DNA of 56,918 nucleotides from a virus. The notes under the pieces are model-generated. The model had not been told where the DNA came from. It ran no database searches and saw nothing but the letters and a program-made list of their open reading frames with translations. Of the stretch, positions 29,181 to 50,021 are shown one piece after another. The translations under genes were made by a program, and so were the position numbers. Numbering within the stretch: the first letter of the stretch is position 1; each line of letters begins with the position of its first letter. The stretch covers positions 1-56,918 of the IMG/VR virus record IMGVR_UViG_3300043410_002441, one strand, 5' to 3'.

Positions 29181-30614
29181 TTAAATAATCTTATTTTTTT
29201 TAACTAAATTATCATTAAAATCATTAATGTGTTTAACTTCTTCAAAATCATATTCATAGCCAAGTTTATGTGTTCTATTAAAATCACTTAATCGTTTTTT
29301 ATAGGATCTCATTTTGTTTAAATGATACTTTAACCCAAGTCTTTTGTAATGTAATAACATCAATTTATTTTCAAATAACTTCACATTACCCGATGGTACC
29401 GCGAAATGACAACCACCCCTATAATTTATTTCATTAATTTCATTAGGCTTAAACATTACAAACTTATCGAAAAGATCGTTTCTATACCCAGTTTTAACCA
29501 AATTGGTTAATTTATCGGTATAATCAAATGAAAAGTCACTCGTAATCATATCATACCCAGTTGGTTTAACCACAGTATAATCACTGTTATGGAATTCTAG
29601 TATAGTTGATCTTAAATCATCCGCGTATAAAAACTCATCCATATCACAAACAATAACAATATCAGCGTTATTTTTAGAATTTTTCCAACCAGTGTTTTTT
29701 ATCTGTAAATAAGCATCATCCCTTATTTCACCATTAGTGTCATAAGATATTATAGTAACCTTAGGGTGTTTTTTTAATAATTTAGTGCTGTCATCATTTG
29801 ATTTATTATCGTAGACAAATATTCTAGAAACCAAATTTTCATAATGATTTAGGAAATAAGGTATCATTTTTTCTTCATTCCAACAAAGAACATGCATGTC
29901 TATTTTGGGTAAATCTTTATCAAAGATAACATGTTTAGTTTCTTCATTTAAACAAATTGGTAAATTTTTGGAGTACTTTGATTCAAATTTATTCTTATTG
30001 TCATTCCATTTTTGATTAACCATACCAACTGATTTGTGTAGAATCAAAATATTAGATATAAGGCCAACTTTAACCCCAGATAAAAAATTTTCAAAACAAA
30101 AACTTATATCATAAAAATGAAAACCATCAAAATCTTCATCAAAAACACATTTGATATTATTCTTATTAACAGCAAAAAATAAACCGTCAACAACAATCAT
30201 ATCTTTTATTTCATTCCCATAGTTTTGGGAATACTTGTTAGCCCATGTTTTTACACCATCGGTATGTTTAACAGTACCATGCATGGCGTTTCTTATCTCC
30301 CACCACATACCACTAATCATGTGGTTTGTACCAGCAACACCCAAAATACCATATTCTGGGTTTTTATTAAAGGCCTTTAATATTTTTTCACCCCAATTTT
30401 TTGTTTCAAATAAAATGTCATCATGACAAAAAACAACAATATCACTAGATGATTCAGCTAAACCTTTATTGTATATTTGGGTTAATGAATATTCACCGTT
30501 ATTTTCATACGGTAAAATTTCAACACCTTTATGAATACAGGTTTTCCTAAGGTGCTCAATAAAACTTTCATCTATTTTTCTTGTTGAAAAAACAACACTT
30601 ATTTTATAATCCAT
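29181..30614 (-). CDS. Two-module glycosyltransferase (two GT-A domains)
   Basis: I use the ATG at 30614 (MDYKISVVFSTRKIDESFIE, 477 residues). An ATG 5 codons earlier would overlap the upstream gene further. Module 1 has SLTQIYNKGLAESSSDIVVF followed by CHDDILFETKNWG, the H-D-D-I pattern of StrF-like GT2 enzymes. Module 2 starts KIDMHVLCWNEEKMIPYFLN and contains VYDNKSNDDSTKLLKKHP and IVIVCDMDEFLYADDL, with the DMDEF metal site of GT2_4-type transferases. Two catalytic sites suggest that it adds two sugars in turn. Confidence 0.75.
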   Translation of the reverse strand: MDYKISVVFSTRKIDESFIEHLRKTCIHKGVEILPYENNGEYSLTQIYNKGLAESSSDIVVFCHDDILFETKNWGEKILKAFNKNPEYGILGVAGTNHMISGMWWEIRNAMHGTVKHTDGVKTWANKYSQNYGNEIKDMIVVDGLFFAVNKNNIKCVFDEDFDGFHFYDISFCFENFLSGVKVGLISNILILHKSVGMVNQKWNDNKNKFESKYSKNLPICLNEETKHVIFDKDLPKIDMHVLCWNEEKMIPYFLNHYENLVSRIFVYDNKSNDDSTKLLKKHPKVTIISYDTNGEIRDDAYLQIKNTGWKNSKNNADIVIVCDMDEFLYADDLRSTILEFHNSDYTVVKPTGYDMITSDFSFDYTDKLTNLVKTGYRNDLFDKFVMFKPNEINEINYRGGCHFAVPSGNVKLFENKLMLLHYKRLGLKYHLNKMRSYKKRLSDFNRTHKLGYEYDFEEVKHINDFNDNLVKKNKII

Positions 30615-30912
30615 TATCCTCTTCTTCAATGATTAAACTTCTTTCCAGAATGTCATTTTTATATTTTAAAACAGGTATAATATGGTTTATTGTTTGGATG
30701 TAAATAAATTTTTGTTCAATTTCATCCAATTCGCGCTCAAGAAATGTCGCTAATTTATAATCCTCTGAATTTAATGGGTAAACAAATGCATATAAAACTT
30801 TATCACCAACCTGTATCCTTTTACCAGACCAAACAGTTTTATAGTCTATCTGGTTTAATATATCAGGGGTGATTGCTTTATACGCTTTTATTTGATCTTT
30901 AAATACTACCAT
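30604..30912 (-). CDS. Hypothetical small protein after dUTPase
   Basis: A 102-residue protein starting MVVFKDQIKAYKAITPDILN. One motif-like segment, WSGKRIQVGDKVLYAFVYPL, suggests a small beta-barrel. A helix EDYKLATFLERELDEIEQKF and an acidic tail EEEDNGL follow. No family is recognised. The ATG overlaps the dUTPase stop as TAATG. It overlaps the two-module GT gene by 11 nt. It belongs to the operon, but there is no clue to its job. Confidence 0.6.
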   Translation of the reverse strand: MVVFKDQIKAYKAITPDILNQIDYKTVWSGKRIQVGDKVLYAFVYPLNSEDYKLATFLERELDEIEQKFIYIQTINHIIPVLKYKNDILERSLIIEEEDNGL

Positions 30913-31498: not shown

Positions 31499-32719
31499 TT
31501 ATATTAATGTTTTATAAATTTGTGCTCTTAATTTTGTTACGTAATTTATATCATACTTATCTTTAACAGTTTCGTATAATTTTTCACCCAAATCTTTAGC
31601 TAAGTTAGGGTTATCGATTAATCTTTTAACGTGTTGACTCCATTGTTTATGGTTTTTACTTGGCTCAACTAATAAAGAATTACCTTTATCGTTAAAACCA
31701 CCACCTTTTTCAATAGCCGAAACAAGGTCAATTGTATACGGACCATAGTTTTGTGCGATTATAGCTTTTTTATGAAAACCAGCTTCAATAACTTTTAATT
31801 GAGATTTATATTTGTTAAACGCACTATCATTTAATGGAGCTAAAGCCACATCAAATTCATTATAACCTTTTGCGTAGGTTTCAATAGGTTTTGTCCAAAT
31901 TCTTCTATACGGCATATTTTTATCATCATAGAATAAACCTTGATCAAATTTCAATAAATGTTTTACATACTCTTGGTCTTTGATGGTTTTAAAATGATCG
32001 GTTAAGAATATTTCATACATGAACCAGGTTGTTTCAACTGGTTGCATATCTCTTTCCATAACTTGGCCAGTTTCTGGGTGTATTGCTTTAACTTTACCTC
32101 TTGTATCATAACCACACAACACAATCTGCATTTTATCCTCATACTCTTTAGATCTTTGTGTAACACCCCTTAAAAGCTCAATGTCTTTTATATGCGATGA
32201 ACCACCAAGCCATCCAAATCTCAATCTATCTGATTCACTTAATTGTGGTTTAAACTGAGGTTCATTAGGGTTAACGGCATTAGCCAATACAACACAATTC
32301 TTATTATATTTAAGAACCTCTTTTTGTAGTAAGTGTGTTGATACAGTGACTAAGTCAGCTTCTTTAATAATGCTAACAGTGTGATAAGGTATATCATTCT
32401 TTTTTGATGTTTGGTATAAACCATGTGATGGGTCTAAATTCCAGTGGTCATCGTAATCAACAATAACTTTACCACCAAAAGATTTGATTTTTTTAATAAT
32501 ATCAACACCCTGTAGATAATTACCACCTGGAGCTCTATGAAAAAAGAATAATTGGAATTTTTTTAAATAATTATCATTATTAAAATCAACATTTTCATTA
32601 ATTTCAACAAAAAACTCATCCGAATTATTATTTTGTAAAGTTACATGCGGGTCAACGCATCTAAATTTACCAGATCCAGCTCTATCGTTTGGCTGTACTA
32701 ATATATTAATCTTACTCAT
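31499..32719 (-). CDS. GT4-like glycosyltransferase (GT-B fold)
   Basis: A 406-residue protein starting MSKINILVQPNDRAGSGKFR. LRFGWLGGSSHIKDIELLRG begins the donor domain. The donor site is YKSQLKVIEAGFHKKAIIAQ, a GT4-like K-x(n)-E-A-x-x-x-x-x-I. The N-terminal acceptor domain has GKVIVDYDDHWNLDPSHGLY, resembling other phage and bacterial polysaccharide GT4 proteins. It is the first gene of the ~9.7-kb operon that ends with the sigma factor. I found no late motif before it, so it may be an early or middle unit. Confidence 0.75.
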   Translation of the reverse strand: MSKINILVQPNDRAGSGKFRCVDPHVTLQNNNSDEFFVEINENVDFNNDNYLKKFQLFFFHRAPGGNYLQGVDIIKKIKSFGGKVIVDYDDHWNLDPSHGLYQTSKKNDIPYHTVSIIKEADLVTVSTHLLQKEVLKYNKNCVVLANAVNPNEPQFKPQLSESDRLRFGWLGGSSHIKDIELLRGVTQRSKEYEDKMQIVLCGYDTRGKVKAIHPETGQVMERDMQPVETTWFMYEIFLTDHFKTIKDQEYVKHLLKFDQGLFYDDKNMPYRRIWTKPIETYAKGYNEFDVALAPLNDSAFNKYKSQLKVIEAGFHKKAIIAQNYGPYTIDLVSAIEKGGGFNDKGNSLLVEPSKNHKQWSQHVKRLIDNPNLAKDLGEKLYETVKDKYDINYVTKLRAQIYKTLI

Positions 32720-32779: not shown

Positions 32780-33529
32780 TTATTTTGGTACAACCACACC
32801 TCTCCTGCTCACAACATCAGAAGCTTTAGTGTTTGCAAAATATATTGACATCTTAATGTCGTTAGTTTCGTAGTATTTTATTATAAATGATGCGGTAAAA
32901 GTGTCACCAGCACCACTTACATCTATTGTATCTCTGGGTACTGGAGATGGATAAACATCACCCTTATATTCAGCACCTTTTTTACCAAGGGTTGTTATTA
33001 TGTTTAAATCCGTGATAAAACTATCTTTTTGTTGTGATCTTTCTTGTTTGTTTAATTTAATAAAGGTAAAATCTTTAAATATCGGTAACATAAGTCTTTT
33101 ACTATCAAGTATTGAGCATTTTGAGTGGTGTGCTATCATACTGAGAGTTTCATTTGTTAAAAACCCTTTATTATAATCACTAACAATAACAATATCTGAT
33201 GACGAAATTTGTTCTATTAAATCTTCATTTAAAATTAAAGGTTTAATATCTTTTTCACCCTCATCAACTCGAATAATCATTTGATTACTTTGCTCATCAA
33301 CAAATCTTGTTTTAATTATTTTAGATTCTTGATGGATGGAACTTATTTCACAATCTGGTTTTATTGCTCTTATGTTTTCAACAACATTACCAGCCATACC
33401 AGGATTTTTTGTTGTTTTATATGGGTTTAATATTGGTACTGGTGCTTCTGGACAAAGCCTAGTTACGTTACCATATATAAACTTATCAACGCAAGTTTCA
33501 CCTATAACAAGTATTTTTATCTTATTCAT
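32780..33529 (-). CDS. PfkB-family sugar kinase, HldE/RfaE N-domain type
   Basis: A 249-residue kinase. The start ILVIGETCVDKFIYGNVTRL, then CPEAPVPILNPYKTTKNPGM and AGNVVENI, is diagnostic of the HldE (RfaE) kinase domain, which phosphorylates D-glycero-D-manno-heptose 7-phosphate at C1. The PfkB signature DVSGAGDTFTASFI (catalytic Asp in GAGD) is intact. It is shorter than typical HldE kinase domains (~315) and lacks the nucleotidyltransferase domain. It stands alone between terminators and short gaps. With the KdsC-like phosphatase it suggests activated-heptose synthesis, pending a nucleotidyltransferase elsewhere. Confidence 0.85.
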   Translation of the reverse strand: MNKIKILVIGETCVDKFIYGNVTRLCPEAPVPILNPYKTTKNPGMAGNVVENIRAIKPDCEISSIHQESKIIKTRFVDEQSNQMIIRVDEGEKDIKPLILNEDLIEQISSSDIVIVSDYNKGFLTNETLSMIAHHSKCSILDSKRLMLPIFKDFTFIKLNKQERSQQKDSFITDLNIITTLGKKGAEYKGDVYPSPVPRDTIDVSGAGDTFTASFIIKYYETNDIKMSIYFANTKASDVVSRRGVVVPK

Positions 33530-36372: not shown

Positions 36373-39300
36373 CTAAACCGTAAATTCTTCGTCTAAACCA
36401 GGTATTTTGAGGGTTACGGTTTCAGAAAACCAATAATCTGGTTCATAATCCATCTTTTTCCAGAATTCTTTTTCCATCTGAGATGGTGTGAAAAACTCAT
36501 GTAGGGTATCTTGATCCTCAATATCAGTAGGTTGGTCATTAACCAATTCTAGTTCAGATTTTAAGAACATTTGTTTATCTTCTGGTTTCCTTATTAAGAT
36601 TTTATCCCTAACATCAAGTGAAAAAGCGACTAAAAGTGGTTGAACTTTATTATTTAAAGCTTCTAAATATTTTGGTACATTATATTCACCAATATAGTTA
36701 GGTTGATTTTCTATAATATCGTTTGGTACCAAAGTAGCATACATATTACCATGCTTATCTTCTTGGGCATCACCATGTGATTTTGTTTTACCATTATTCA
36801 CATAATAAATTACATCACCAAGATTCACATCTAAATTATGCTTAATAGCTAATTCCATATGGGCTTGCTTAGCTAATTGTTTACCATTTTTATCGGTACC
36901 ACGATTAACATAACCATTTATAGATTTTTTAACTTTAGCTTTTGTCGCTATTTTAGCCAAAGGTATTTCTTTATTATAAACTTTTTCAGCGTATTGATAG
37001 TAATACTGAACAAAACCATACCCATCACCATTTAACAACATTTTCATAGCAACAGCTAAAAATTCTTCAATATAAACTGGCATGGCTTTAGATTTAATAC
37101 TATTACCAGTTAAACTAATTGATCCGTCATCTTCCAATAAAGCGTAGTTCTTTCTTGATAAATTGATTGTTGCTGGCCAAATACCATCTAAACCAAGACC
37201 CATTTCACCACGCATGTACGTATCATTAAACTCCGCAACAACAGCTTTAACACCAGTATATTCCTTACCAGCTTCCACTTCATCGTTTAACCCTTTACCA
37301 ACATACGTATATGGTTCACCAGTTTTTGGTGCCATAAAGTTAACACCGTCCGTATCAAGTACCAAAGGTGTATAACCTCTTTTCATAAAGAATTTAACCA
37401 TTAATCTCAAATACTGTCTAGCTGTACATGTAATTCGTTCACTGACATCTATCTCAGCCCATTGAAACGCCATTGGTGCGCCCAAGGCACCGAACATCGA
37501 GTTAATGAAGATTTTAAGTGGTAATTGTTTGCGTTTATATTTGTCTGCTAATTGGTGGTTACCTTCTTTTTTGTATTTACTAGCTAAGTTTTTAGCTTTA
37601 AAACGTTCTGTGTGGAAATACTTTAACATGGCTTTCATCGCCCCATTAACATCCACACTAGGGAACACATCGTGGGCCAACTGTATCGCTGGATAAAGTG
37701 AGTTGTAGTCCATCTTTCTAAGGGTGGTTGAGTAACCAACTTTAAATAATCTTGATAAACCACCTGTATAATCTCTTTTTACATCAGATACTGGAATAGC
37801 TAAATCATTCTCAAATGAATATGTCATCATTAACAATTTCCATAAACCAGCTGTACCCATTGTTGAAACTCTTTGGTATGTGGTTGGTATCAATTTAGCC
37901 AACATAAATGACGTTTGGTTATAAACAGCATCAACTTCCATTGTTTCCCACAAGTCATCAATAAGATAACGCTCAACAATGTATTTACCATCAACTTCTT
38001 GAAACGTATCAATATAGCTACGTAAAGCACTTAACAAACCCTTAAGATATTTAAAAGTTTTTGGTGCTCTCATGTCTAATTGAGCTAAACCAGTACCGAT
38101 ACCCATTTTTGGGAATACGATTGTTTTACCTAATTTGATTTGCTCTATAATTTTGTTTATGTCAGAATCAATGTGTTTTTTAATATTATCAAAATCTTTA
38201 TCATTAAAATAAGATTCTGGGTTTGAATCTGGTGAATGTTTAGTTACAATCCCAATAACGTTTGGTTCACCACGCATTTCTTTTGCTTGACCACCAAGAC
38301 CTTCTCGCATCATATTATCCCCAAATACAAATATTTTATTTGGGTTGGCTTGAATATCCTCTCTACGGATATAATCCATAAACTCCAGAGCGGGTTTTGT
38401 TTTAGCGTATGAACCTGTTCTATCGTCAAAATAAAATTTATCCTTTGAATACCATGTATTACCAATCCTATCACCAACAATATAAACACGGTTCTTTTTG
38501 GCGATTTTGTTGTATTTACACACATACTTTAAACTAGTTGATTTCATACTAGAATCAATCGCTTGGGCACGTCTAGCTGAGTGTATGATGTCAATTATGC
38601 TATAACCAAACATATTTGTTTGAGTGTAGTTTTCAACTTCATTACCCAATTTTAACATACCATCTTTGTTGTTGATTAATTCACCAACTTTAAGGGTTAT
38701 TGCAATTTGTGTAATATCTAAACCAAGAACCTCACATCTTTTAAAGAAAAACGGCCAGTCAAAGTTTGCGCTGTTATAACCCGCAATAATTGTTGGTTTT
38801 ATTTCATTAATTCTTTCAAAAAACTTTATAATTGCTTGTCTTTCAGATTCATCATCATCTTCAACAGGTATAATTTCCTGAAAACCTTTATTTGTGTAAA
38901 TACCAATTAAGAAAATACGATTAATTGCTGGATCCAAGCCTGTTGTCTCTAAGTCAAATATGTATTTATGGATTTCATCGTATTCTTCAAAACCCTTAAA
39001 TAATCGTTTACCTGTATGGATGAAATATTGCTCAACTGGCGAAAGCATCAAAAAATGCGATCTAATGTCATGTCTTGTATCATAAACATAAATCCCACCT
39101 TCCCTAAAAAAATCTAACATTCTTTTGTGGCCCTGAGTACAAGTTACTAAATAACGGTAACCCTCATGTAATTTTGGGTGATCGCCACCTAAAGCTTTTA
39201 TCTCAATCCCAAATCTTTGTCTAGCGGCTTTAATTTTAGAATCGCTATTACCGTAAAAATTAACGAGTTCCTTAATTTTATTAAGGTTTTTAATCCACAT

Positions 39301-39471
39301 GAACGCTAACAATGGTTCAGTCTCAACATAACTACCCCTTTCAGGATCCTGTTTAATCTTATGGATTAGATTTGTTTCAGCATCATACTCGACATTGACG
39401 ATGTATTTTTCATCATCATGACCATTTAAAAACTTTTCTATTTCTTCAGGGGAAATCTTGTATTCAGCCAT
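36373..39471 (-). CDS. 43: DNA polymerase, family B, with an inserted DUF7831-like domain
   Basis: A 1032-residue replicative polymerase. The exonuclease motifs are Exo I IFDLETTGLD (171-180), Exo II GYNSANFDWPFF (231-242) and a candidate Exo III YLIDD (502-506). The polymerase motifs are A DYNSLYPAI (588-596), B KIFINSMFGALG (653-664) and C LDTDGVNF (705-712, with Gly where Ser is usual), followed by LSRKNYALLEDDG and KKSINGYVNRG. Between Exo II and Exo III are ~160 extra residues compared with T4 gp43. Residues 376-490 (NPNKIFVFGDNMMREGLGGQ through GIGTGLAQLDMRAP) match the phage DUF7831-like family. The promoter resembles a host (Bacteroidota) type, not the late motif. Confidence 0.92.
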   Translation of the reverse strand: MAEYKISPEEIEKFLNGHDDEKYIVNVEYDAETNLIHKIKQDPERGSYVETEPLLAFMWIKNLNKIKELVNFYGNSDSKIKAARQRFGIEIKALGGDHPKLHEGYRYLVTCTQGHKRMLDFFREGGIYVYDTRHDIRSHFLMLSPVEQYFIHTGKRLFKGFEEYDEIHKYIFDLETTGLDPAINRIFLIGIYTNKGFQEIIPVEDDDESERQAIIKFFERINEIKPTIIAGYNSANFDWPFFFKRCEVLGLDITQIAITLKVGELINNKDGMLKLGNEVENYTQTNMFGYSIIDIIHSARRAQAIDSSMKSTSLKYVCKYNKIAKKNRVYIVGDRIGNTWYSKDKFYFDDRTGSYAKTKPALEFMDYIRREDIQANPNKIFVFGDNMMREGLGGQAKEMRGEPNVIGIVTKHSPDSNPESYFNDKDFDNIKKHIDSDINKIIEQIKLGKTIVFPKMGIGTGLAQLDMRAPKTFKYLKGLLSALRSYIDTFQEVDGKYIVERYLIDDLWETMEVDAVYNQTSFMLAKLIPTTYQRVSTMGTAGLWKLLMMTYSFENDLAIPVSDVKRDYTGGLSRLFKVGYSTTLRKMDYNSLYPAIQLAHDVFPSVDVNGAMKAMLKYFHTERFKAKNLASKYKKEGNHQLADKYKRKQLPLKIFINSMFGALGAPMAFQWAEIDVSERITCTARQYLRLMVKFFMKRGYTPLVLDTDGVNFMAPKTGEPYTYVGKGLNDEVEAGKEYTGVKAVVAEFNDTYMRGEMGLGLDGIWPATINLSRKNYALLEDDGSISLTGNSIKSKAMPVYIEEFLAVAMKMLLNGDGYGFVQYYYQYAEKVYNKEIPLAKIATKAKVKKSINGYVNRGTDKNGKQLAKQAHMELAIKHNLDVNLGDVIYYVNNGKTKSHGDAQEDKHGNMYATLVPNDIIENQPNYIGEYNVPKYLEALNNKVQPLLVAFSLDVRDKILIRKPEDKQMFLKSELELVNDQPTDIEDQDTLHEFFTPSQMEKEFWKKMDYEPDYWFSETVTLKIPGLDEEFTV

Positions 39472-39527: not shown

Positions 39528-39929
39528 TTAAACAATGTCGGTTTTTACAAATGAATCAAGGATGTGGATGTATAATTCTTCCTGGATCGGTGCAATTAAT
39601 TCACCATAAACTTGGGTTGGGTTTGCTAAATCAAATAAAGTTAGTTTGAACTCACCAAGAAAAATACCTGGTTTATCGGTATCATCTTTAGTAAATTGAT
39701 AAGTAATTATGTAATGTTTATAACCATTTTCATCACAAGGGTTTTCAAGAGCAATATTTGCGGCTTTATTTGCAACTTTATATATACCAGTTTTTTCATC
39801 TTTCATGGCAAATGTAGCCACACAATTTTCGATCAACTCTTCAAAACGTCTAAAATCGTTACGTCCGTCTCTGAAAACTTTCATTTTCAAAATTGGTAAT
39901 GTTGCATTTTGTCTTATACTGAATATCAT
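39528..39929 (-). CDS. Small beta-sandwich virion protein (BppU-like pattern)
   Basis: A 133-residue protein starting MIFSIRQNATLPILKMKVFR. The order ENCVATFAMKDEKTGIYKVA, then NKAANIALEN, YIITYQFTKDDTDKPGIFLG and EFKLTLF resembles the N-terminal beta-sandwich of baseplate/fibre proteins such as BppU. In these, D-x-x-x-P-G-x-F/Y-x-G-E-F-x is conserved. That match is by pattern only. It overlaps the fibre gene by 1 nt (TAATG) and is last in the neck-fibre unit. It is probably an attachment adaptor of the adjacent fibre. Confidence 0.55.
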   Translation of the reverse strand: MIFSIRQNATLPILKMKVFRDGRNDFRRFEELIENCVATFAMKDEKTGIYKVANKAANIALENPCDENGYKHYIITYQFTKDDTDKPGIFLGEFKLTLFDLANPTQVYGELIAPIQEELYIHILDSFVKTDIV

Positions 39930-41680
39930 TAGAATAGGTTTTTTATAAATATTTGTCTACCACCATTTATTATAGGTAAATTGTATATACCAGCAATATT
40001 TCTAGTTTCTTTTTTAACTTCAACAGTATACAAAGGTAAGCAATACATCTTAAAAGATTTAACACCACCCAAAAATGTTCCAGCAAAGAATTTTTCAAGA
40101 ACCGTATTAATATGTTTGGTATTATCTAGTAAAACAGCGTTCATTAAATTTTGGGTACCACCACCAAATGAAATATTAAATGGTACACCTTCTTGGTATT
40201 TTGCGTCAGTATCCAATTCATGCGGGGTGACCTCAACAAAATTATTATTCCTAAAAACTAAGAATCCGTTTAAATATATTGAGAACGTACCTTTTTTATA
40301 GTCACCGTATTTTAACTGACAATTATTACCATAAGCAAAATCTCTCTCAAACACACCAGTTACATTTAAAAATTTTTTCTCACTAACATTTATAACTGGT
40401 ACTTTTGTATAACACTCTTCAATAGTAAAATATTTTGTAACAATTAAAGCCCTTGTGTAGTTAACACAAGGATCGTCTGGTTCCATTATAAAAGAATTAT
40501 TTGTTATACCACTAACTTCTTGAGTAGCCCCAGTATAACAAATATCAGTTGGGTATATTGTTCTGTAGCCAATTCTACCGTCATTTGTAACCCTAATACC
40601 AAAAGCGTTATAAGTTAAATCACTATATTTTTGGTGATATTGTAATGGTTGTGAATCAACTGTATAATTTCTACCCGTATACATCAAACCATTGTAGTAG
40701 TTGAAGTATCCGATGTAATTTGTTAAACCATCCAATGTTATTGCACTATTGTAAGTGTATAAATTATTTGTATCTAAAGGTATTACATTATATTCGTTTT
40801 GTAATTTTTGAACCTCAACAGTTGTTTGATCAGCAAATTTATTTTCAGCTCTTGTTCCCATGTAAAAAATGAAACCACTATTATTTGGATAAACTTCATT
40901 TAATGTTAAACAACTTCCAGATGAACCAGAGCTGCCAGATGAACCAGACGAGCCAGAGCTACCTGAGCTACCAGAACTTCCAGATGAACCAGAGCTACCT
41001 GAGCTACCAGAACTTCCAGATGAACCAGAGCTACCTGAGCTACCAGAACTTCCAGATGAACCAGAGCTACCAGATGAACCAGGTAAATCCATTGGGAAAT
41101 GAATGATCATGTCAACGGTCCAACCTCTTTTAGCTCGAGCAGGAAACCATTCAACATTCTCACCAAATATTTTATAAAAACCCTGATAAAAGCCACCGTT
41201 TAGTTTATTGTAATAAACACCATTGTCTAAATTCATGTGATCAATTTCATAACAATAGTTACCACTATAACCTGAAATTTCATGAAAACAGAAAGTGTCA
41301 CCACTTTCAACAATGTATGTTAAATTACTATCAACGTCAAGAATTATATTACTATTTGCTGTGTAACCAGTGGCACCATTACCAATATTACCCAACCAAC
41401 TAAAATTAGTGTTTAACCATACAGGTGCCGAATTATTCCAAACAAAATTATTAACATTAAATGTTGTGCCATTATGTATGAAATAATTGTCATAACCAGT
41501 TAAAGTTATATTTTTAAGTTCCACATTTTCTGTTTGTACAGCACCTGGTATAGAACATAGATCTTCCGTTAAATTTACGTTAATTAAATTACATTCGTTA
41601 TAATCACGATAAAAATCACGACAATCTTTTGTTACGATTAAATCAAAATAATCGCTATTATCTAGGGCTGTATAAAACAT
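39929..41680 (-). CDS. Fibre-like virion protein with a Gly-Ser-Ser repeat shaft
   Basis: A 583-residue protein. An N-terminal globular part (~200 residues, aromatic and Asn-rich, MFYTALDNSDYFDLIVTKDC) is followed by about 18 uninterrupted Gly-Ser-Ser triplets (~residues 200-256). A C-terminal beta-rich domain (~325 residues) comes next, with LNGFLVFRNNNFVEVTPHEL and ending GGRQIFIKNLF. G-x-y-like repeats of this kind form shafts or linkers in phage fibres. The Ser-rich shaft could carry O-linked sugars, which fits the many glycosyltransferases of this phage, but that is inference. It is joined by TAATG to the neck gene. Confidence 0.7.
   Translation of the reverse strand: MFYTALDNSDYFDLIVTKDCRDFYRDYNECNLINVNLTEDLCSIPGAVQTENVELKNITLTGYDNYFIHNGTTFNVNNFVWNNSAPVWLNTNFSWLGNIGNGATGYTANSNIILDVDSNLTYIVESGDTFCFHEISGYSGNYCYEIDHMNLDNGVYYNKLNGGFYQGFYKIFGENVEWFPARAKRGWTVDMIIHFPMDLPGSSGSSGSSGSSGSSGSSGSSGSSGSSGSSGSSGSSGSSGSSGSSGSSGSSGSSGSCLTLNEVYPNNSGFIFYMGTRAENKFADQTTVEVQKLQNEYNVIPLDTNNLYTYNSAITLDGLTNYIGYFNYYNGLMYTGRNYTVDSQPLQYHQKYSDLTYNAFGIRVTNDGRIGYRTIYPTDICYTGATQEVSGITNNSFIMEPDDPCVNYTRALIVTKYFTIEECYTKVPVINVSEKKFLNVTGVFERDFAYGNNCQLKYGDYKKGTFSIYLNGFLVFRNNNFVEVTPHELDTDAKYQEGVPFNISFGGGTQNLMNAVLLDNTKHINTVLEKFFAGTFLGGVKSFKMYCLPLYTVEVKKETRNIAGIYNLPIINGGRQIFIKNLF
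40915..41082 (-). repeat. Gly-Ser-Ser coding repeat with a 36-bp unit
   Basis: A 36-bp unit (starting CCAGAACTTCCAGATGAACC on the plus strand) is repeated exactly at 40971-41006 and 41007-41042, with a third partial copy to 41070. More diverged copies precede it. It encodes the GSS tract and could change length by slippage or recombination. Confidence 0.9.
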
Positions 41681-46955: not shown

Positions 46956-49900
46956 ATGGCAAACAAAGTTTATGCATCTCCAGGTGTCTACACAACCGAA
47001 AAAGATTTAACATTTACAACTGAGACAGTTGGTGTTACAACATTAGGTGTAGTGGGTGAAACCTTAAAGGGTCCAGCGTTCCAACCAATATTCATCAGAA
47101 ATTTTGATGAATTTAAGACTACTTTTGGTGGTACTAATCCAGAAAAATTTAAAAATACTCAAATTGTTAAGTACGAATTACCGTACATCGCAAAACAGTA
47201 TTTAACACAATCAAATCAATTGTACGTTACAAGACTTTTAGGTTTATCTGGTTATGATGCTGGTATGGCTTGGGTTATTAAAACATTAGGTGCTATTGAT
47301 GAATCAACTTTATCACACACTGGTGTTACACAAACAACAATTAATTTTAAAGTTGACACAAATAATAACTCGTTTTATGTAACTGGTGTTAGTGGTAATA
47401 CAGATTTAATTGATTACTTAGCTAACGTAACAGGCGTTGCTACAACTGAATTTGATACAGTATTTAATCAATTCTTTACAACTATTGGCGGGTACATTAA
47501 TGCTGATTTTTATCTTGGTAACGCTATGTATTGGGGTCTTTTAACCAATGATATGGATAGTCAATTAACACTTGACGCTTCAAATTATAGTATTACACCA
47601 ACATACATTGACGCATACGAATTACCATTTACAATCCCAACTTCTGATAGAGATATCTACGTGTTAAACAATGAATTAACATATGATACAAATACTGAAA
47701 CATATAGTGGACCATCATTTGCTTTATATTGCCATACATTTACGCCTGCTGGTTCTCACGTACTTAACGGCCAATTAGAATTGTTCACTGTTACTTTAAC
47801 AGCTGATCCATTCATGGAAGGTCATAATAAGAATGTTGCTACTGTAAGAAGTAGAGGTAATTACACATCAGATGTGTTAGGTTATAAAGTTAATACTTTG
47901 GACATGGTTGCATCTTCAGGTGTTGTTAGTGATCCGTACTTAGCTTTTGATTTAACTGGTACAACAGCTAACCCTACTGGTGGTACTTTCTCATACACAG
48001 TTTCATTAGATTCTACAAAATCTAACTACATTAAAAAAGTTATTGGTACTACACCAACAGATAAAGATTCTCAAATTTATGTTGAGGAAGTTTATGACGC
48101 TTCTTTAAAATTTGGTTGGTTAAGTGGTAAAATTAAAGGTTTATACACTGAATTAACATCAGTTAACCATTGGGATCACTATAGATTCCAATATCAATCA
48201 CCAGTAACACCTTTCTTCGTTTCTGAATTAAGAGGTGGTTTACCACAAAGATTGTTCAGATTAATTTCTATCTCTGATGGTACAAGCGCTAATACAGAAA
48301 TCAAAACGTCAATTGCTAACGTTGATTTAGCTAAGAAAACATTTGATATCTATGTAAGAGCGTTCCGTGATACCGATGCAAATCCAGTTATTTTGGAAAA
48401 ATTTGTTGACTGTACAATGGATGAATCATTAGATAACTTTGTTGGTAGAAAAGTTGGTACAATTGATAACAAATACCCACTTAAGAGTTCTTATGTTGTT
48501 CTTGAGTTGGCTGTAAACGCACCAACAGATGGTGTTCCAGCTGGTTTTGAAGGTTATGAATTTAGAACAAATGGTTTAAGTGGTTATACTGCTACTGCTG
48601 TTCCTGAAATGCCTTATAAATTAAAGTATTACGCACCTGGTGACACAATTTATAACCCACCATTTGCTAACGCAACAGTTTCTAGTGGTGATAGAGTACC
48701 TAAACATTATTTAGGTTTTTCAAGTCAATTTGGTTATGACAAAGACTTATTATTGTTCAAAGGTAAAATAAGCACATTAGGTGACAACGCTTACAACACT
48801 GGTGATGATTACGCTACCAAAACAAAAGGTTTCCACATGGATATCAACGCTGGAAGTATTATTGATTCTGTAACTGGTGAGGAAGTATTCTCTGTAGGTG
48901 TTGGTACATTTGTTGATCCGATCGTTGTTGACGGTACAGCAACTCACCCATACAATAGCATGAGAACAAGAAAATTCACAGCTTTATTTGCTGGTGGTTT
49001 TGACGGTTGGGATGCTTACAGAATTAACAGAACAAACACAGACGAATATAAAATCGGTAGAACTGGTTTCGTAGCTGGACAATTTGATACATTCACAAAT
49101 GTTGAATATGCTGAATTATTTGGTACTTCTGACTACTACGCTACAATGTATGGTATCAGAACATTCCAAAACCCTGAAGAAACCGCTATCAATATCTTAG
49201 CAACTCCTGGTATTGACGTTTTAAACAACACAGACTTGGTTAGAGACGCAATTGAAGTTGTTGAAGAGAAAAGATTAGATGCAATTTATTTACCTACATT
49301 ACCTGATATCAAGTTGTTAAACAATAACAACCCTTCAGATACTGAAAGCTGGTACTTTGCTCAAGATATCGTTGACGAATTAGAAAACACTGATATCGAC
49401 TCTAACTACACTGCGGTTTACTATCCATGGATTCAAATCACAGATACTGATAATAACGCTAACTTGTATATCCCACCTACTGCTGAAGTAGTAAGAAACA
49501 TGGCTTATACTGATAACGTAGCGTTCCCTTGGTTTGCAACCGCTGGTTACAATAGAGGTTTGGTTAAATGTAATAGAGCTCGTATCGTTCTTGATCAAGA
49601 AGCGAGAGACGTGTTATATCCAGGTAGAATTAACCCATTAGCGACTTATTCAGACGTTGGGGTTGTAATCTGGGGTAACAGAAACTTACAAATCAAATCA
49701 AGCGCTCTTGACAGACTTAACATCAGAAGATTGTTATTACAAGCAAGAAGATTGATCATGAGTGTATCTAAGAGATTGTTATTTGATCCAAACGATACAA
49801 CAGTTAGAAATCAATTCTTATCGTTGGTTAACCCAATCTTGGATAATATTAGAAAAGAAAGAGGTTTAACAGACTTTAGAGTTAGCGTTGCAATGGACGT

Positions 49901-50021
49901 TGAAGATAATGATAGAAATACTTTAAAAGGTAAAATCTTTATCAAACCAACACCTACTTTAGAATTCATTGAACTTGAATTTACAGTAACTCCACAAAAC
50001 GTATCATTCGATAACATATAA
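46956..50021 (+). CDS. 18: Tail sheath protein (T4 gp18-like), enlarged
   Basis: A 1021-residue contractile sheath subunit. The start VYASPGVYTTEKDLTFTTET and the end of the core (NIRRLLLQARRLIMSVSKRL, then GKIFIKPTPTLEFIELEFTV) are typical of gp18. Conserved PWFATAGYNRGLVKCNRARI and INPLATYSDVGVVIWGNRNL lie in the C-terminal domain. T4 gp18 has 659 residues. The ~360 extra are in the middle (about 110-700), where surface-exposed domains of sheath proteins sit. Codons here are notably enriched in C-ending synonyms in the last third, in keeping with high expression. A strong terminator follows. Confidence 0.93.
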   Translation: MANKVYASPGVYTTEKDLTFTTETVGVTTLGVVGETLKGPAFQPIFIRNFDEFKTTFGGTNPEKFKNTQIVKYELPYIAKQYLTQSNQLYVTRLLGLSGYDAGMAWVIKTLGAIDESTLSHTGVTQTTINFKVDTNNNSFYVTGVSGNTDLIDYLANVTGVATTEFDTVFNQFFTTIGGYINADFYLGNAMYWGLLTNDMDSQLTLDASNYSITPTYIDAYELPFTIPTSDRDIYVLNNELTYDTNTETYSGPSFALYCHTFTPAGSHVLNGQLELFTVTLTADPFMEGHNKNVATVRSRGNYTSDVLGYKVNTLDMVASSGVVSDPYLAFDLTGTTANPTGGTFSYTVSLDSTKSNYIKKVIGTTPTDKDSQIYVEEVYDASLKFGWLSGKIKGLYTELTSVNHWDHYRFQYQSPVTPFFVSELRGGLPQRLFRLISISDGTSANTEIKTSIANVDLAKKTFDIYVRAFRDTDANPVILEKFVDCTMDESLDNFVGRKVGTIDNKYPLKSSYVVLELAVNAPTDGVPAGFEGYEFRTNGLSGYTATAVPEMPYKLKYYAPGDTIYNPPFANATVSSGDRVPKHYLGFSSQFGYDKDLLLFKGKISTLGDNAYNTGDDYATKTKGFHMDINAGSIIDSVTGEEVFSVGVGTFVDPIVVDGTATHPYNSMRTRKFTALFAGGFDGWDAYRINRTNTDEYKIGRTGFVAGQFDTFTNVEYAELFGTSDYYATMYGIRTFQNPEETAINILATPGIDVLNNTDLVRDAIEVVEEKRLDAIYLPTLPDIKLLNNNNPSDTESWYFAQDIVDELENTDIDSNYTAVYYPWIQITDTDNNANLYIPPTAEVVRNMAYTDNVAFPWFATAGYNRGLVKCNRARIVLDQEARDVLYPGRINPLATYSDVGVVIWGNRNLQIKSSALDRLNIRRLLLQARRLIMSVSKRLLFDPNDTTVRNQFLSLVNPILDNIRKERGLTDFRVSVAMDVEDNDRNTLKGKIFIKPTPTLEFIELEFTVTPQNVSFDNI

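Follow-up and report, generated by a model that had tools for sequence, protein, structure and literature searches.

A DUF7831 domain is embedded in the exonuclease module of a phage family B DNA polymerase

Background

The DNA polymerase encoded by the phage of IMG/VR record IMGVR_UViG_3300043410_002441 has a long additional stretch of protein between two of its exonuclease motifs, which raises the questions of what this stretch is, how it was acquired and what it could contribute to the polymerase. The original prediction read it as a complete copy of a stand-alone phage protein family, set between intact Exo II and Exo III motifs, that may bind a nucleotide-like ligand and so tune editing or sense modified nucleotides.

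The window, by which we mean the whole stretch of DNA analysed (56,918 nucleotides, or 56.9 kb), comes from a contractile-tailed phage as judged by its gene content of sheath, head, portal and terminase genes; it contains major head, portal and terminase genes in addition to the following:

46956-50021, tail sheath gene, in the window

Elsewhere the window encodes a 583-aa protein with a long central Gly-Ser-Ser repeat (39929-41680, minus strand), as well as several glycosyltransferase-like genes and a PfkB-type kinase (264-1214, 29181-30629, 31499-32719, 32780-33529, minus strand).

Results and Discussion

The polymerase gene

The open reading frame under study is a family B DNA polymerase, with polymerase motifs A to C and exonuclease motifs Exo I to Exo III all present. 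It matches PHROG 262 (DNA polymerase) at 2.5e-44, and its residues 499-858 align with residues 308-678 of solved Pfu-type polymerases, a register in which Y502 and D506 fall within Exo III. No catalytic residue of Exo I-III or of motifs A, B and C varies in an alignment of 19 insert-bearing polymerases; F237, D238, Y502 and D506 are among the residues conserved without exception, and Exo II and Exo III are thus intact around the insert, as had been predicted. The gene and its catalytic motifs are as follows:

36373..39471, minus strand, family B DNA polymerase gene of 1032 aa with the inserted DUF7831 domain (open reading frame; Pfam DNA_pol_B, DNA_pol_B_exo1 and DUF7831; PHROG 262; solved family B polymerases)
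38947..38955, minus strand, Exo I, D173-L-E175 (D173 and E175 invariant in the insert-bearing set)
38746..38781, minus strand, Exo II, GYNSANFDWPFF, residues 231-242, including D238 (N233, F237 and D238 invariant; exonuclease Pfam matches)
37954..37968, minus strand, Exo III, Y502-L-I-D-D506 (Y502 and D506 invariant; Pfu-type register)
37684..37710, minus strand, motif A, D588-YNSLYPAI (D588, L592, Y593 and P594 invariant)
37489..37515, minus strand, motif B, K653-IFINSMFG (K653, N657 and G661 invariant)
37348..37356, minus strand, motif C, D706-T-D708 (invariant)

Identity and boundaries of the inserted domain

The window polymerase carries a complete DUF7831 domain inside its exonuclease module. 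Pfam family PF25176 (DUF7831) matches residues 363-477 with an E-value of 4.8e-44 and a score of 149.4 bits, above the curated cut-off of 27, and the match spans positions 2-116 of the 118 in the profile, which is nearly its full length. PHROG 2072 matches the same stretch at 6.4e-15, while NCBIfam and PADLOC gave no useful match for the inserted domain. The idea that the insert is an entire copy of a stand-alone family is therefore borne out by both matches. The boundaries first assigned to it, residues 376-490, lay in the right region but cut off an N-terminal strand and helix; the domain occupies residues of about 362-487, and the insert ends some 15 residues ahead of the Exo III tyrosine. 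Its parts are:

38008..38403, minus strand, whole inserted stretch, residues of about 357-488, in place of a short variable loop (alignment with insertless relatives of 51-63% identity in the polymerase domain)
38011..38388, minus strand, DUF7831 domain, residues 362-487 (PF25176 at 363-477; domain HMM at 362-487; AlphaFold pLDDT of 95 for residues 356-500)
38284..38325, minus strand, signature loop 1, residues 383-396, FGDNMMREGLGGQA, after the first core strand (the window keeps every loop position that is conserved to at least 90% among 104 DUF7831 domains outside polymerases)
38239..38244, minus strand, signature T410-K411, at the end of the second core strand (conserved family-wide; ordered like DarG T79-K80 by motif comparison only)
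38089..38103, minus strand, signature loop 3, GIGTG, residues 457-461, following core strand three (conservation of at least 90% in non-polymerase copies; degraded in two sublineages)

Stand-alone DUF7831 proteins (PF25176, PHROG 2072), found in Caulobacter, Rhizobium and Ruegeria phages, Acidobacteria and giant viruses, share about 35-50% identity and the signature residues with the insert. They are free-standing and mostly 120-160 aa long, whereas the window copy lies inside a DNA polymerase.

AlphaFold modelled the isolated domain with a pLDDT of 95 from 57 aligned relatives, predicting strands at positions 24-31, 50-56 and 95-99 of the construct with long helices between them; a conserved loop follows each strand, so that the conserved glycine-rich loops are located at strand ends. 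A Foldseek search with this model recovers other DUF7831 proteins, including those of Tupanvirus and Hyperionvirus and giant proteins of uncultured cr-phages, and returned no solved structure below an E-value of 0.001 from the PDB. A tyrosine phosphatase or rhodanese fold was considered and is not credible, the best PDB match being 6i28 at an E-value of 0.04 and a TM-score of 0.29.

Distribution of the insertion

The same insertion was looked for in other phage polymerases and found in about 34 IMG/VR contigs, from 60% identity upward. A search with the polymerase recovered the insert in frame in 31 contigs (60-90% identity), one being truncated inside the domain, and a search with the domain added a further 4; in one of these contigs, L054, the polymerase frame is interrupted once past the insert, on its downstream side (L054:5170), by either a sequencing error or a real frameshift. 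An assembly or frameshift artefact joining two genes, the outcome that the original prediction had named as fatal to it, is ruled out because the same in-frame architecture recurs across these contigs, and an intein is likewise ruled out since the region is DUF7831 and Pfam finds no intein or Hint domain in it, in agreement with the initial failure to see splice residues; the chance that either accounts for the insert is negligible.

Relatives that do not have the insert (51-63% identity) were recovered by searching with the polymerase domain alone. The starts of Exo II and Exo III are 271-272 residues apart with the insert and 147-162 apart without it, confirming the lengthened spacing noticed at the outset, and the stretch between the conserved NRVY motif and the tyrosine of Exo III measures 170-171 residues in the 29 polymerases that carry the insert versus 47-62 in 82 that lack it. 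Alignment with these relatives places the insertion point in a variable loop immediately ahead of the strand that runs into Exo III, and this loop differs in both length and sequence among the insertless polymerases. The family B polymerases of Salinibacter phages, cyanophages and the insertless IMG/VR relatives thus have the polymerase and exonuclease motifs in common with the window, but have a short loop here and no DUF7831. A free-standing DUF7831 gene was found in none of 42 contigs of insertless relatives and a second copy in none of 17 insert-bearing contigs; most of all these records may be incomplete.

Our literature search found no mention of DUF7831 or PHROG 2072, and no paper describing such an insertion. 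The architecture, in which a known orphan domain is embedded in a known enzyme, appears to be new and, as first supposed, undescribed.

Origin, selection and decay

When the insert columns are left out of the polymerase tree, every polymerase that carries the insert falls into a single clade (support 1.0), and on a domain tree the inserted domains also form one clade (support 0.988). DUF7831 was therefore gained once by this polymerase lineage. The inserted-domain clade groups with proteins of acidobacterial mobile elements and with domains from polyproteins (0.87).

The inserted domain is under purifying selection. Its dN/dS is 0.035-0.066 in pairs near 90% identity, which is like that of the remainder of the protein, and 0.10-0.27 in most of the more divergent pairs. 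It does evolve faster than the exonuclease core, with a mean pairwise identity of 57% versus 73%. As a measure of how well the family signature has been preserved, we took the 27 positions that are at least 90% conserved in 104 DUF7831 domains outside polymerases; the window keeps 26 of the 27, most insert-bearing lineages keep 25-27, and L010 and L028 keep 23. Only 16-20 are left in L011, L013 and L014 and in L015, L016 and L017, with losses that include G384, D385, G394, A396, T460 and G461. The polymerase tree resolves these two groups as separate lineages, although support for the deeper node is weak (0.44) and the domain may have recombined. Both sublineages have retained the domain with a degraded putative pocket, so that any ligand function appears to be dispensable for the polymerase there.

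Genomic and domain company of DUF7831

The proteins and genes that accompany DUF7831 elsewhere offer a clue to what the domain may do. In phages, free-standing DUF7831 genes occur near rII, helicase and nucleotide-metabolism genes, part of these neighbour roles having been assigned by visual inspection of the sequences. Acidobacterial MobL-type elements have the gene order SLOG (YspA-like), SSB and DUF7831, sometimes followed by DUF4326; in five acidobacterial mobile elements (L130, L143, L148, L201 and L202) DUF4326 comes directly after DUF7831, with SSB upstream. An acidobacterial polyprotein of 1928 aa (L123:534-6317) has YpsA SLOG, DUF7831 and DUF488 in a row, a giant protein of L085 joins a cpYpsA SLOG to DUF7831, and in the giant protein L103:41-6262 DUF7831 is followed by a 2OG-Fe(II)/AlkB-like oxygenase domain that scores below the Pfam cut-off. 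The giant phage proteins of L093, L107, L113 and L103 are related to one another and have DUF7831 near residue 1320. In a 2739-aa frame (L065:170-8386) DUF7831 lies N-terminal to an N4-like virion RNA polymerase, so that the domain is tied independently to another phage polymerase. No homology of DUF7831 to DUF4326 itself was found.

Viral SLOG and DUF4326 proteins have been proposed to act on ADP-ribose derivatives within an NAD/ADP-ribose counter-defence network, and fusions of SLOG to nucleic-acid enzymes, including a 3'-5' exonuclease, have been interpreted as sensors of ADP-ribose derivatives (PMC9503650). Because the partners of DUF7831 include SLOG, DUF488 and DUF4326, we infer by association that it probably binds or processes nucleotide or ADP-ribose derivatives. 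The phage SLOG fusions likewise join a putative nucleotide or ADP-ribose sensor to a replication or repair enzyme (PMC9503650), although they involve another domain family, and here the domain is inserted within a replicative polymerase. The nucleotide-like ligand of the original prediction is made plausible, if indirectly, by this company and by the conserved loops at strand ends.

Is DUF7831 a macrodomain?

In the macrodomain protein DarG, ADP-ribose is contacted by N22, Q34, T79, G117, G119, N120 and G121 among others, and K80 is needed (PMC5179494). DUF7831 has counterparts in the same order, N386, Q395, T410, K411, G457, G459, T460 and G461, which lie in the loops that follow its core strands and were chosen after the fact. 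Their N...GxGGQ...TK...GxG(T/N)G order resembles that of the ADP-ribose contacts and catalytic lysine in DarG/TARG1-type macrodomains. The DarG/TARG1 macrodomains, however, have a six-stranded sheet, whereas DUF7831 has fewer strands and matches them significantly neither by profile nor by fold. Pfam found no Macro (PF01661) match in the window polymerase at E-values up to 1; hhalign of DUF7831 against macro gave P of 0.008-0.04, with 8 of 150 column shuffles equalling the score and the reversed profile scoring higher; and HMM matches between the two reached E-values of only about 0.002-0.02. No macrodomain is among the 50 Foldseek PDB matches listed, and the search of the viral library gave the macro protein Tk.4 at a TM-score of 0.48, a probability of 0.20 and an E-value of 1.9. 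The motif pattern is suggestive, but these profile and fold tests are not significant, and we do not place DUF7831 among the macrodomains. In the larger contigs we found no Macro (PF01661) gene and a single NADAR gene (G016:C1:11848-12279, L458), on a 321-kb contig that also has an inserted polymerase.

T-even PolB mutants are cited in PMC11348598 as escaping DarTG, and a polymerase-linked answer to DNA ADP-ribosylation is therefore plausible. Its most specific form, in which DUF7831 would be a minimal macro-like ADP-ribose hydrolase and thus a built-in DNA-ADP-ribose eraser by the proofreading site, removing DarT-type lesions at the fork, is one that we consider unlikely.

Possible roles of the insert

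The ligand, the activity and any effect on editing are put forward here as proposals. The best overall explanation, which we hold tentatively, combines the single capture with an ADP-ribose-type ligand role of DUF7831 at the replication fork, directed against host defence. The capture itself is established: once, in an ancestor shared by this clade of large tailed phages, a free-standing DUF7831 entered the replicative family B polymerase at a permissive loop that separates its exonuclease core from the helix of Exo III, and purifying selection has kept it there with the polymerase and exonuclease active sites intact throughout. The domain may belong to the counter-defence network as a small module that binds or processes ligands of the nucleotide or ADP-ribose type and that, being fused in cis, could act at the replication fork. 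Its most likely action would be to let synthesis or proofreading continue by binding or removing an ADP-ribose-type adduct or signal made by a host defence, the best known being DarT-like DNA ADP-ribosylation. Two sublineages later degraded the putative ligand site, and the domain there is perhaps a structural part only.

That the insert has a structural or regulatory role and no ligand, filling a permissive loop as a spacer or as a surface on which a clamp, primase or helicase docks, is somewhat unlikely. The variable length and sequence of the loop in insertless relatives, the faster evolution of the insert and the persistence of the domain in the two sublineages that lost signature residues all speak for this reading, but the preservation of 26 of the 27 family-conserved residues in the window, and of at least 23 in the other non-decayed lineages, is more than a spacer needs.

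A possible role for the domain in proofreading, as a nucleotide-responsive gate or allosteric switch on primer transfer to the exonuclease site, is suggested by how near to the tyrosine of Exo III it ends, in an exonuclease that is intact in all other respects. The insert loop before Exo III is, we presume, not the beta-hairpin loop of RB69/T4 polymerase known to partition primer ends. The full-length AlphaFold model (pLDDT 58.7) is too poor to orient the insert relative to the DNA, the signature residues have been lost in two lineages, and there is no sign of modified bases: the five thymidylate synthase homologues in the larger insert-bearing contigs look ordinary, and we rejected base hypermodification on this ground. 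Tuning of editing or sensing of modified nucleotides, as originally suggested, is thus possible but gained no support, and we doubt that a proofreading switch is the explanation.

It is more improbable still that DUF7831 acts on soluble defence signals, such as cyclic ADP-ribose variants or ADPr-1''-phosphate, with the fusion to an early and abundant protein securing only its expression or stability and giving it no role specific to the fork. Phage ADP-ribose-processing domains have been argued to act mainly against soluble derivatives (PMC9503650) and most DUF7831 proteins are free-standing, but the domain is associated independently with SSB, a helicase, a virion RNA polymerase and a DNA polymerase.

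Conclusions

An embedded and probably ligand-handling domain would physically link the replisome of these phages to the nucleotide/ADP-ribose arms race. The insertion also makes the function of DUF7831, an orphan family of phages, bacteria and giant viruses, testable through deletion or mutation of the insert. The naturally decayed and the insertless relatives provide controls for such studies, and the invariant residues indicate which ligand-site mutants to make.
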